Shown here in pieces: positions 5,372 through 45,913 of a DNA stretch of 64,000 bases. Origin of the DNA: Bacillus sp. FSL K6-3431 (GTDB lineage Bacteria > Bacillota > Bacilli > Bacillales > Bacillaceae_C); contig NZ_JBBOCT010000001.1 in the NCBI RefSeq assembly GCF_038002605.1, forward strand, positions 4,836,001-4,900,000, written 5' to 3'. The first letter of the stretch is position 1; each line of letters starts with the position of its first letter. The notes beneath the pieces were generated by a model, which did not search any database, had not been told where the DNA came from, and worked only from the letters and a program-made list of their open reading frames with translations. The position numbers were made by a program, and so were the translations under genes.

Positions 5372-7420
<2,049 letters not shown>

Positions 7421-42750: not shown

Positions 42751-43593
42751 ATGAATAAAGATAAAATGTTAAGACTGAACATCCAATTTTTTGCTACAAC
42801 TAAAATTGCGGATCTTATTAACCCGGAAGTAATGGGGGATATGGTATCAGCGGAACTACCAAATATGATTAAGTTCCAAGGAGTAGCGCCCATTGATAGC
42901 ACTCTACAAGGGCAACCAGGTTCCACGATTACACTACCTAAATATGCTTACATTGGTGATGCTACAGTTGTTGCGGAAGGTGCGGCAATTGATTACACCA
43001 AACTTGAAACATCTACTGCTCAACACACGATCCACAAAGTTGCTAAAGGCGTTGAATTAACGGATGAAGCTGTATTGAGTGGATATGGTGATCCAATCGG
43101 TGAAGCTACTCGCCAAATCGCTATGTCAATTGCATCAAGAATCGATAATGAGACATTAGATGCACTGAAAACAGCACCATTGAGCGTTGAAGTAGAATCA
43201 ATTGACCCTGGGGTAATTGATTCTATTGAGGGTGTGTTTGACGATGAAGACGAGAGCACTGGTGTTCTTTTTGTGAATCCTAAAGATGCTTCAAAGCTTC
43301 GTGCAGCCGCAGGCGTTGATTGGACTCGTGCATCTGAATTAGGAGACAACATCCTTATTAAAGGAGCGTTCGGAGAGATCCTTGGATGGTTGCTAATTCG
43401 TACGAAAAAGCTTGAAGAGGGAGAAGCTATCGCGGTTAAGGCAGGGGCAGCTAAAACTTACTTAAAGCGCGGTCTTAATCCAGAGTCAGCACGTGACATT
43501 GATCATAAATTAACTAAATTCAACGCGGATCAGCACTTTGTTGTTGGTCTTATTGATGATAGCAAGGTTGTAAAAGTCACTGTCGCGCCCTAA
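42751..43593 (+). CDS. Major capsid protein (short form)
   Basis: A 280-residue HK97-fold capsid subunit: TKIADLINPEVMGDMVSAELPNM, GQPGSTITLPKYAYIGDATVVAEGAAI, IHKVAKGVELTDEAVLSGYGDPIGEATRQIAMSIASRIDNE. AGGAGG precedes ATG. The gene ends GCG-CCC-TAA, a shift-prone site; a second product with 18 more residues is predicted. Confidence 0.92.
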   Translation: MNKDKMLRLNIQFFATTKIADLINPEVMGDMVSAELPNMIKFQGVAPIDSTLQGQPGSTITLPKYAYIGDATVVAEGAAIDYTKLETSTAQHTIHKVAKGVELTDEAVLSGYGDPIGEATRQIAMSIASRIDNETLDALKTAPLSVEVESIDPGVIDSIEGVFDDEDESTGVLFVNPKDASKLRAAAGVDWTRASELGDNILIKGAFGEILGWLLIRTKKLEEGEAIAVKAGAAKTYLKRGLNPESARDIDHKLTKFNADQHFVVGLIDDSKVVKVTVAP

Positions 43594-43648
43594 TGGGCCC
43601 GTTCCAATCGGGCAAGCTGAAATAGGCAAAGACTTCATTGTCAGTTAG
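43588..43648 (+). promoter_or_regulatory. Predicted +1 frameshift site and C-terminal extension of the capsid protein
   Basis: At CCC-TAA the Pro tRNA can slip from CCC to CCT (43589-43591); reading then continues AAT-GGG to TAG at 43646-43648. The extension after Pro280 is NGPVPIGQAEIGKDFIVS, giving a 298-residue form. A GCCCG / CGGGC hairpin (43597-43601 / 43609-43613) starts 3 nt after the stop codon. The tail tube gene has the same layout. Listeria phage PSA is known for this type of +1 shift in capsid and tail genes. Confidence 0.8.
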
Positions 43649-43659
43649 GAGGTTAATAA

Positions 43660-44055
43660 ATGCCTTATTTAACGTACGAAGAATATGAAAATATAACCCT
43701 ATCTGATATGGACGTGGTTGAATTTGATAAATTATTACCCCGTGCGAGTGGCGTTATAGATAACGTCACTCGTAATTTTTATCAATTTAACGACTTAGAA
43801 ACAGATAATCCATTCAGAAAAAGGAAATTCAAATCCGCATTGGCTTTCCAGATCGAATATTTCCATGATGTGGGCGCTGTAACATCAGAGGGTATCAATA
43901 GCCCTCAAAGTGTGACAATCGGCAGGACAAGCGTTTCTAGTGGCTCACGTGGTAGTGTTCAGCAACAAGAGTCAACCAATAAACTAGTTTCACAGGATGC
44001 CCTCTTATTCCTTGAAGGAACAGGGCTTCTTTATCGTGGAATTGGGGTGATCTAA
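43660..44055 (+). CDS. Head-tail connector protein
   Basis: A 131-residue protein starting MPYLTYEEYENITLSDMDVV, with helices like SPP1 gp15-type adaptors that bind the portal ring. TTAGGAGG precedes ATG. First gene after the capsid in the usual connector position. Confidence 0.75.
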   Translation: MPYLTYEEYENITLSDMDVVEFDKLLPRASGVIDNVTRNFYQFNDLETDNPFRKRKFKSALAFQIEYFHDVGAVTSEGINSPQSVTIGRTSVSSGSRGSVQQQESTNKLVSQDALLFLEGTGLLYRGIGVI

Positions 44056-44411
44056 TGCGGATTGGTCCATTGCCTAAAAAGTGGTTGATCCACAGCATCG
44101 TATACAAAGGGTTCACTGGTAAGAAAGACGACTTTGGTAAGCCTGTATATGATCCACCAATCACTATCGAGTATGTACGCTATGATGAATCGTCTGTATT
44201 CAGCCGTGACAATACACAAACGAAGATTTTAGCTGATGGTGTCATATTCGTTGATACTACCCACAGCAAGCCTATTCCGGTGTTTAAAGAAGAATCTAAA
44301 ATCACGTTTAATGATGGGGTAAAAGACAGGGAACTTACATTAAAGAAGATCGTTCCTTGCTATTATCCCAATCAGAACAAGGTTCATCACTACGAACTGG
44401 AAGTGATTTAA
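44055..44411 (+). CDS. Minor capsid/connector protein 1
   Basis: A 118-residue beta-rich protein (YKGFTGKKDDFGKPVYDPPITIEYVRYDESSVFSRDNTQTKILADGVIFVD) of the Minor_capsid_1 type, probably a head-completion stopper. One-base stop/start overlap with the preceding gene. Confidence 0.75.
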   Translation: MRIGPLPKKWLIHSIVYKGFTGKKDDFGKPVYDPPITIEYVRYDESSVFSRDNTQTKILADGVIFVDTTHSKPIPVFKEESKITFNDGVKDRELTLKKIVPCYYPNQNKVHHYELEVI

Positions 44412-44740
44412 TGGCCATCAAAGTAAAGTTCAAATCTGATCTTGATGGAGTTAAAAGAAAAGCTTCTGACATGGTGAAGCAAGGTCAATACGCCTTTGCT
44501 AATCAGGTACTTGCGGATAGTAATATTTATGCGCCAATGCTTTCAAGTGATTTGCGTAATCAATCTAGTATTGCATTAGATGGTAAATCAATCATCTGGA
44601 ACGCTCCATATGCAAGGCGGCAGTATTACAATTATGGCGCTAAATTCACGACGCCTGGCACTGGACCCAAATGGGATGTGAAGGCTCAGGCTATCCACGG
44701 TGCATCATGGCAGGAAATTGTAAAGAAGGCGATGAAATGA
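44411..44740 (+). CDS. Minor capsid/connector protein 2
   Basis: A 109-residue protein from the ATG at 44411, which overlaps the previous stop. KVKFKSDLDGVKRKASDMVKQGQYAFANQVLADSNIYAPMLSSDLRNQS and a final KWDVKAQAIHGASWQEIVKKAMK are typical of Minor_capsid_2. Likely neck or tail-joining component. Confidence 0.75.
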   Translation: MAIKVKFKSDLDGVKRKASDMVKQGQYAFANQVLADSNIYAPMLSSDLRNQSSIALDGKSIIWNAPYARRQYYNYGAKFTTPGTGPKWDVKAQAIHGASWQEIVKKAMK

Positions 44741-45153
44741 CAACGGAACTAAAAGAACTGGATTTTATGCAAAAACTTAATCAAAAGATTAATAGTCTTG
44801 GTCTATACGCTGATTCTTTCATCGGTGTGCTTGGTGACGGTGAAAACTTATCCATTGTGGCTATGCCTGGTGGTGCTGAGGTCGAGTATATGGGTGGCAT
44901 GCGGGATAAAGATTATCAAGTCCAAGTTAATGCCAAGAGCATAGATCAACTAAATTGCATCAACGCGTTGACTTATATTTATCAGACGCTTGAAAACTTG
45001 ACTGATCTACCAAGTAGTAATGATAGCTACGAATTTAATAAAATATCCACTCAATCCCTGCCCTCTCTTGTTACGCAAGATGAACAGGGTTTTTATGTTT
45101 ATGCATTATCCATTTCAGCAAAAATCACAATTTATAAAGGGGTTGTTCAATAA
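44737..45153 (+). CDS. Minor capsid/tail terminator protein 3
   Basis: A 138-residue protein from the ATG at 44737 (ATGA overlap). MQKLNQKINSLGLYADSFIG, then DKDYQVQVNAKSIDQLNCINALTYIYQTLENL, matches the Minor_capsid_3 family. It sits where tail terminators lie, just before the tail tube gene. Confidence 0.72.
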   Translation: MTTELKELDFMQKLNQKINSLGLYADSFIGVLGDGENLSIVAMPGGAEVEYMGGMRDKDYQVQVNAKSIDQLNCINALTYIYQTLENLTDLPSSNDSYEFNKISTQSLPSLVTQDEQGFYVYALSISAKITIYKGVVQ

Positions 45154-45590
45154 TGGCAAGAAAAAAGAATGCACTGACAGAATACTACGTGGCGCCTATG
45201 CCTATCGCTGATGAAGAACCAGAATACAACGAGTTAGCGGATTGGATTTCCTCTGTTAATGATGATACAGACGAAGAATCAGAAGACACTGGATACTATA
45301 GTGGTGACGGAACGCCTGAAACGGATGTTATTTCTGTTAAAAAGAAATACACGTTTGAGGGTCTTTACGATGAAACTAATCCAGCTATGAAATTTATTGC
45401 GGGGTTAGAATTTGTGACTGGTGAAGAACGTAAAATCATGTTTAAGCAAGTTAGAACGGACGGAAAAACCCTCGAAGGTCCAGCGACTGTAACAGAACCA
45501 AAGGTAACAGGTGGAGAAGCTACGGTGTACGCTCCATTCAGCTGTGCTATCGCTTGGAATAAAAAGCCGACTGAAACAACAACGCCCTGA
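45153..45590 (+). CDS. Major tail tube protein (short form)
   Basis: A 145-residue tail tube subunit (TYEGLYDETNPAMKF-like region at EGLYDETNPAMKFIAGLE, then GEERKIMFKQVRTDGKTLEGPATVTEPKVTGGEATVYAPFSCAIAW). Its ATG overlaps the previous stop. It ends ACG-CCC-TGA, a +1 shift site like that of the capsid gene. Confidence 0.82.
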   Translation: MARKKNALTEYYVAPMPIADEEPEYNELADWISSVNDDTDEESEDTGYYSGDGTPETDVISVKKKYTFEGLYDETNPAMKFIAGLEFVTGEERKIMFKQVRTDGKTLEGPATVTEPKVTGGEATVYAPFSCAIAWNKKPTETTTP

Positions 45591-45645
45591 TGCGCCCCAA
45601 GCAATAGGGGCAGCGACGATAGGCACAAATTTAATAATTAGTTAG
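45585..45645 (+). promoter_or_regulatory. Predicted +1 frameshift site and C-terminal extension of the tail tube protein
   Basis: At CCC-TGA, slippage to CCT (45586-45588) continues as GAT-GCG to TAG at 45643-45645. The extension after Pro145 is DAPQAIGAATIGTNLIIS, giving 163 residues. It aligns without gaps to the capsid extension (9 of 19 identical, counting the Pro). A GCCCC / GGGGC hairpin (45594-45598 / 45607-45611) starts 3 nt after the stop codon, as in the capsid gene. Confidence 0.8.
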
Positions 45646-45658
45646 GAGATGTATATAA

Positions 45659-45913
45659 ATGCCAACAAAAGAAGAATTAAAAGTTTTATTTAGCACAGGT
45701 AAAACACCCACGGGTGCTGATTTCGCTGGATTAATTGATGGTGTTGAAGGTCCAAAAGGGGCGACTGGTGCAAAAGGCGATAAAGGTGACACTGGTACAA
45801 CAGGCGCTGCTGGTCCTAAAGGCGATGCGGGCGCAACAGGTGCGGCAGGCTTTGGGACGAAAGCACAATACGACGCTATCATTGCTAGATTAGATGCGCT
45901 TGAAACAGTCTAA
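45659..45913 (+). CDS. Collagen-like phage fibre protein
   Basis: An 84-residue protein. Residues 1-30 (MPTKEELKVLFSTGKTPTGA plus DFAGLIDGVE) resemble phage head-fibre anchoring domains. Residues 31-64 hold about eleven Gly-X-Y triplets (GPKGATGAKGDKGDTG and on) that can form a collagen triple helix, then a short trimer-type helix. TTAGGAG precedes ATG. Likely a virion surface fibre. Confidence 0.8.
   Translation: MPTKEELKVLFSTGKTPTGADFAGLIDGVEGPKGATGAKGDKGDTGTTGAAGPKGDAGATGAAGFGTKAQYDAIIARLDALETV

Follow-up and report, generated by a model that had tools for sequence, protein, structure and literature searches.

The window analyzed here is a stretch of 64,000 nucleotides from Bacillus sp. 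FSL K6-3431 (assembly GCF_038002605.1, contig NZ_JBBOCT010000001.1, positions 4,836,001-4,900,000 of the forward strand), and it contains what appears to be a prophage in which a share of the shell protein and of the tail protein is read one base off. The major capsid gene (42751-43593, 280 amino acids), which like the other features described here lies on the forward strand, matches the PHROG 544 major head protein family with an expectation value (E) of 3.5e-97 as well as Pfam PF25209, and it ends GCG CCC TAA, with the CCC codon at 43588-43590 and a candidate +1 slip site, CCC TAA, at 43588-43593. Read in the +1 frame from the second base of the stop codon, the sequence runs for 18 residues, NGPVPIGQAEIGKDFIVS, to a TAG stop (43592-43648), and a stop-proximal stem of five base pairs, GCCCG-(7 nucleotides)-CGGGC, lies 3 nucleotides past the stop (43597-43613). 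The tail tube gene (45153-45590, 145 amino acids; PHROG 820 major tail protein, E 2.3e-47) ends ACG CCC TGA, with the CCC codon at 45585-45587 and the candidate slip site at 45585-45590, and its +1 frame likewise gives 18 residues, DAPQAIGAATIGTNLIIS, and a TAG stop (45589-45645), with a stem of five base pairs, GCCCC-(8 nucleotides)-GGGGC, again 3 nucleotides past the stop (45594-45611). A short fibre gene (45659-45913, 84 amino acids) follows and is the candidate partner of these two extensions, here called tags; its N-terminus reads TKEELKVLFSTGKTPTGADFAGLIDGV, its collagen-like repeats match PF01391 (E 3.6e-7), and its possible C-terminal tip matches PF24243 at E 0.026, which is worse than the family cut-off. 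In other phages, too, fibre genes of this kind are linked to genes with a tag.

An earlier note on this DNA, made from the letters alone, had claimed that both genes end in CCC and a stop codon (TAA in the capsid gene, TGA in the tail tube gene), that their +1 extensions are of equal length and align without gaps, and that a hairpin of five base pairs stands 3 nucleotides past each stop, and on recomputation all of this agrees with the gene ends, with 9 of 19 columns (47%) identical when the slip proline is included. Both genes have CCC directly before the stop and conserved +1 coding beyond it. The note had also read the difference between the two stems as a compensatory pair swap, which does not stand: on the ungapped tag alignment the 3' arms are offset by 1 nucleotide, covering Ile7.3, Gly8, and 9.1 in the capsid tag and Gly8, 9.1, and 9.2 in the tail tag, and the columns are non-homologous. 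Because the two stems are one base apart in register, the swap loses the weight it appeared to have as evidence. Throughout the 5.5-Mb genome the pattern CCCTRATRNGCCC occurs twice on the forward strand and never on the reverse strand, both occurrences being the window sites, and a control pattern gave one forward and no reverse match. No curated Rfam model matched the window between 42700 and 46000 at E values up to 1.

A tag family on unrelated carriers and its fibre

When each window tag was searched by tblastn in 50,697 phage records, the one record matched was that of Virgibacillus phage Mimir87 (MK560763), at its capsid (E 5e-3) and at its tail protein (E 2); a third tag query had no match among the phage records. 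Between Mimir87 and the window, the capsid tags share 68% identity over 22 residues. Both genes of this phage end CCC TAA and have tags of 18 residues, both stems are present, and the same fibre N-terminus is encoded beside its capsid gene. In contrast, the carriers belong to other families (PHROG 10 for the capsid and PHROG 88 for the tail tube, compared with 544 and 820 in the window), and no shift is annotated in the part of the Mimir87 record covered. An alignment of 24 tags yielded no usable scan pattern, and two narrower tag alignments were scanned against viral contigs instead, giving 6 and 12 loci on 18 distinct contigs. The collection of unique +1 tags, for which CCC-stop was an entry requirement, reached 50, of which 44 have exactly 18 residues and 6 have 17 to 25, with a consensus of roughly [ND]xPxxIGxAxIGxxxIIx. 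The codon before CCC encodes threonine at 39 of the 50 sites, as it does in the tail gene tsh of Listeria phage PSA, and Shine-Dalgarno-like words precede 3 of the 50. The tagged capsids scanned against PHROG (15) fall in families 544, 10, 29, 840, and 247, and the 14 tail-tube genes so scanned in 820, 88, 238, 117, and 2175; PHROG 2175, named for a protein with an Ig domain, is the match for the tail genes of L130 and L168, which count as tail tube genes by their position.

In a search of 397 genomes of the order, only the two window sites were convincing among the tag matches listed, the next having E 0.012, and many of the further matches listed were the same nine positions inside one frame of about 470 codons. 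At class level, 3 of 398 genomes matched the fibre; L233 has the tag, a stem (CCUCUC/GAGAGG), and the fibre, and in L234 the fibre match is weak and no tag was seen.

Routes other than a +1 slip also lead to the tag. The -1 frame gives VIGEAIIGESFKIQ at ...GAG GGA AAG... in the L130 tail gene, GIGEGAIGSTLEVG at ...TCG GGA AAC... in the L186 capsid gene, and GIGEGVLGNDLGVG at ...GAG GGA AAC... in the L185 capsid gene. Sites of -1 slippage have the form X XXY YYZ, which these three fit, and GGGAAAG is the site of lambda G-GT. In L187 the tail tube gene (PHROG 238) continues in frame into ...QSIGEASIGDTFKVD, so that no slip is needed, and this end lies 14 bases upstream of the fibre gene. With three routes to the same tag (+1, -1, and in frame), selection seems to keep the peptide regardless of the frame in which it is read. 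These alternative frames, the neighboring fibre gene, and the occurrence of the tag on unrelated families of capsid and tail proteins all go beyond the earlier note.

The fibre gene follows the tail tube gene in the window and the capsid gene in most of the other phages. Its N-terminus reads TKEELKxxFSTGKxPTGxDFAxLIDGV or a near variant, and the remainder consists of collagen-like repeats or other stalks, with no collagen repeats shown in the fibres of L130, L175, and L233. Two alignments of this N-terminus, scanned against viral contigs without use of the tag sequence, recovered 25 and 41 loci, or 44 distinct contigs by name and 28 clusters at 90% DNA identity over 66 bases. A scripted search found a tag in 38 of the 44 contigs, or 24 of the 28 clusters; in 36 of the 38 one gene or more has the +1 route at CCC-stop, L185 has the -1 route only, and L187 the in-frame route only. 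The six untagged contigs (L184, L203, L204, L205, L207, and L209) have the six lowest fibre scores, 28.7 to 36.2 bits, and the lowest-scoring tagged contig, in which the fibre is cut by the contig end, has 38.0 bits. Conversely, a fibre is present in 17 of the 18 contigs from the tag scans, the exception being L125, and neither a tag nor a fibre occurs in any of 121 loci picked by homology to a capsid or tail gene (best scores 1.9 bits for the tag and 5.2 for the fibre). A scan with the L184 fibre recovered its own contig alone, and the whole window fibre matched no phage record with the low-complexity filter on.

Some of these contigs hold remoter resemblances. In L184 the gene before the related-type fibre (5593-6297; fibre score 36.2 bits) has an in-frame end, DTLGDMIVEQSLIIN, that resembles the tag by eye, and the tag profile gave it no score; it is possibly the same peg-and-socket arrangement on another structural protein. 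In L203, L204, L205, and L207 a frame with as many as 275 codons overlaps a fibre with the N-terminus FLTG..PTEANFADLIDS and ends SSGVG[GA]GGFIIG, which may be a remote tag-like ending. The contig with the in-frame tag, L187, has a second collagen-like small gene upstream of its capsid gene (425-670).

The tag appears, by comparison of distance matrices, to track the N-terminus of the fibre and not the protein that carries it. For the capsid tag, 22 genomes were prepared and L200, where the fibre pattern was unmatched, was dropped; in the remaining 21 the tag distance follows the distance between fibre N-termini (Mantel r 0.50, p 1e-4), and it still does when capsid distance is given (partial r 0.46, p 1e-4) and in the 181 genome pairs without BLAST similarity between capsids (0.48, p 2e-4), and the correlation of tag with capsid given the fibre is 0.05 (p 0.25). 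For the tail tag (18 genomes) the values are 0.36 (p 1e-4) with the fibre given the carrier and 0.04 (p 0.31) with the carrier given the fibre. The fibre gene adjoins the tail tag in 6 of these 18 genomes and is roughly 2 kb away in the other 12, and in those 12 the values are 0.35 (p 0.01) given the carrier and 0.06 (p 0.30) in reverse. Within one genome the capsid and tail tags are more alike than in shuffled pairs (0.590 versus 0.526, p 0.014, 15 genomes). The fibre residue after the conserved phenylalanine is associated with tag residue 11 (Fisher p 2e-4), a pair picked after looking and offered as a lead only.

These correlations bear on an alternative in which the tags would be frameshift-made appendages for adhesion or assembly that act alone, as Ig-like and FN3 extensions are thought to, with the fibre a decoration gene in the same module. 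Relatives of the window tail tube do reach other appendages from the same CCC-stop: an FN3 domain in the +1 frame after CCC TAA in L080 (6427-6670, Pfam E 2e-9) and L081 (6430-6679, E 8.5e-13), a Big_2 Ig-like domain in L228 (E 3.3e-6) and L229 (E 1.7e-12), and acidic extensions in L083 and L084; L125, with a tail tag and no fibre found in its record, also favors this alternative. However, the tag sequence follows the fibre N-terminus over the carrier, including the 12 tail tags that lie apart from the fibre gene, and tag and fibre occur near one-to-one, and we regard independent action of the tags as unlikely.

Stems behind the proposed slip sites

The stems were compared with synonymous recodings of the same peptides, drawn from pooled codon usage with only nested stems predicted, for 37 tags less than 90% alike. 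At p<0.05, 24 of the 37 fold better than recoded (combined p 1.5e-25, kinship ignored), and a set of 11 tags, made up of L233 and a single tag from each carrier family, gives a Fisher combined p of 1e-8. The capsid stem of the window has p 0.060 in the 37-tag test and 0.049 in a second recoding test, and the tail tube stem has 0.022 and 0.021. The codon for Pro4 is CCC in 24 and CCG in 7 of 31 tags, yet 75% of the prolines in the loci are encoded by CCA or CCT; in L233, found later, Pro4 is CCT. GGG encodes Gly8 in 24 of 34 tags and Gly13, the second conserved glycine, in 1 of 31. A covariation count on the 24 of 37 tags that were selected for Pro4 CCC or Gly8 GGG, with a named stem of six base pairs, found 82.6% of cells paired versus 74.7 in shuffles, 12 doubly changed cells versus 5.2 (1 in 500 shuffles was as high), and a covariation score of 0.140 versus 0.051 in shuffles and at most 0.067 in slid versions. 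Its outer pair is UA in 8, GC in 5, and unpaired in 11 tags, and its inner pair UA in 8, GC in 5, AU in 2, and unpaired in 9. Elsewhere in the family the arms are wholly replaced, as CGGCAUC/GAUGCCG in L164, CCGCC/GGCGG in L168, GCCGUG/CACGGC in L183, and the L233 stem given above, and the three -1 sites have no stem (p 0.92, 0.87, and 0.20). By these comparisons the stems are selected beyond coding. The earlier note's picture of a conserved device with a covarying stimulator survives to that extent, as a CCC-stop +1 device with a matched appendage and a hairpin that comparison indicates is selected, and loses the swap between the window stems. The L083 and L084 tail tubes have CCC TGA and a GCCCGA/UCGGGC stem followed by an acidic, glutamate-rich extension, and the stem is therefore not confined to the 18-residue tag.

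The stem might instead be a transcription or mRNA-processing element, with the +1 reading incidental. Terminator-like hairpins do stand right after the stop in the tail tube relatives L226, L227, and L230, where the CCC-stop site is absent; against this, the +1 peptide is conserved on unrelated carriers and has -1 and in-frame versions as well, the -1 sites are without a stem, and no T run follows the tag stems as listed, all of which makes such an element very improbable. A narrower alternative, which concerns the stem only and is compatible with our preferred explanation, is that the hairpin slows termination or protects the mRNA and that the slip needs just CCC-U and a stop. CCC-stop sites with other extensions may have no strong stem (-2.9 kcal/mol in L080, -3.6 in L081, and -4.1 in L001), and the part of PMC6316719 available invokes only CCCUAA to explain the SPP1 shift. 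Set against these are the near-fixed distance of the stem despite its base changes and its presence at the +1 sites and not the -1 sites of the same tag, and this alternative, too, is possible but doubtful.

Recoding as a probable means of placing fibre-docking pegs

The explanation that we consider likely is that recoding places fibre-docking pegs on a fraction of the head and tail subunits. A fraction of the ribosomes reaching the CCC-stop of the capsid or tail tube gene would slip +1, from CCC to CCU, aided by slow termination and by the short stem about 3-4 nucleotides downstream, and the slip would append the 18-residue tag to a share of the subunits of both structures. In this view the tag would serve as a peg: a small fibre encoded nearby, probably trimeric and often collagen-like, would bind to it through its conserved N-terminal domain, such that one fibre type would be hung on head and tail at sub-stoichiometric density. 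Sequence comparison gives the tag family and its slip site, the selection on the stem, the alternative frames, and the linkage and co-variation with the fibre; the slippage and its rate, the tagged subunits in virions, the fibre trimer, and the tag-fibre contact are inferred. The slip site with its extension is of a kind known from PSA and SPP1 and is very likely real, and the docking of tag and fibre, which is well supported by comparison, appears to be new. We also lean, less firmly, toward the broader view that this is a portable, fold-independent peg and socket, in which recoding would set the number of peptide-bearing subunits in two unrelated lattices, one fibre socket would fit both, and the peptide could be carried by any structural protein through +1, -1, or in-frame reading and could travel together with its fibre as one cassette.

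Several observations weigh against the docking explanation or the role given to the stem. The distance matrices of the capsid and tail tags are weakly correlated with each other (r 0.19, p 0.05); linkage may cause part of the capsid-tag correlation, because the capsid tag usually adjoins the fibre gene; and the Mantel tests do not remove phylogeny, so that common descent may add to the correlations. The fibre seeds (A2 and A4) were drawn from tagged phages, so kinship accounts for part of the 38 of 44. The L125 record in which no fibre was found spans 38.7 kb and is possibly a fragment, and an empty result of such a search carries little weight; only one tag was found in nine contigs (L125, L173, L181, L187, L191-L193, L199, and L200), the second gene being identified in L125 and L187 and presumed in view in the other seven. 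As to the stems, 13 of the 37 miss p<0.05, three of them with p>0.2; two of the five covariation measures (doubly changed pairs, 2, and further pair types, 4) are no higher than in shuffles; and the in-frame tag of L187, which needs no slip, folds above recoded (p 0.008) in another shape. Hairpin covariation across related phages, which the earlier note proposed as a check, was borne out in part: double changes are present in the wider family, and RNAalifold on alignment A6 gave 3 pairs and called no two-sided change. Our argument for the stem rests on the named-structure count and the recoding test rather than on RNAalifold.

Why phages add small frameshift extensions is, in the portions of PMC5009743 and PMC8718954 available, a largely open matter, for which chance placement and adhesion have been suggested. 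A candidate partner for the extension makes its purpose directly testable, and if the docking explanation is true, one peptide-socket pair would explain both the recoded tag shared by head and tail and its indifference to frame. The tag family is also a natural set on the stimulation of +1 slippage, in which the stem sequence varies and the site is fixed.

Relation to known recoded phage proteins

A +1 shift at CCC-stop is described for tail genes of PSA, A118, A500, and SPP1, and Ig-like extensions are frame-indifferent, in the available parts of PMC5009743, PMC6316719, PMC8718954, and PMC10172136. The Bacillus subtilis phage SPP1 is reported to shift +1 at CCCUAA, giving gp17.1 and gp17.1* in a ratio of 3:1 in tails (PMC6316719, in part). 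The gp17.1* protein is like the predicted long forms of the window proteins in its CCC before the stop, its +1 slip, and the C-terminal extension on a share of the tail tube subunits, and unlike them in that the extension, on a tail protein, is an 87-residue FN3 domain; the 18-residue tags are too short for an Ig-like or FN3 domain. SPP1 also has a collagen-like capsid binder, gp12, for which no link to a tag is reported in the source as far as it was available. The window fibre shares collagen repeats with gp12 and may bind the capsid as a trimer.

Listeria phages PSA, A118, and A500 likewise frameshift two genes, with the tsh +1 shift at CCC_UGA, and the available part of PMC5009743 mentions no matched tag or fibre partner for them. 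PSA had been named in the earlier note as the precedent, which holds for the tail gene (CCC UGA) and not beyond it: the tail extension of PSA has 24 residues and is dissimilar to the window tag, its cps gene shifts at ACA_CCC_UCC with a pseudoknot, and the coat genes of A118 and A500 shift -1 (PMC5009743, in part), unlike the window sites, both of which are CCC-stop. The Ig-like and FN3 appendages of tailed phages resemble the tags in occurring on diverse structural proteins by +1, -1, or in-frame reading (PMC5009743, in part), whereas the window appendage is an 18-residue peptide, similar on head and tail and co-varying with a separate fibre. No account of this tag-fibre pair stood out among the papers listed in a literature search of open-licence papers. 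Searches of the PDB gave mostly chance-like matches; the fibre N-terminus of AfpX13 (PDB 8uur) has a weak match to the anchor motif, ALKERFKAGSIPLQTDFADLVDL, at E 0.0068, which is near the noise (unrelated esterases, E 0.013).

Two further observations concern other extensions at such sites. In L001 (1656-1722) a capsid gene ends CCC TAA and is followed in +1 by 21 residues that look FN3-like by eye, with no Pfam match. In Enterococcus phage EC99P2 (L228:1952-2215) the tail tube gene ends CCC TGA, and the Big_2 domain occupies an unannotated +1 frame of 88 residues.

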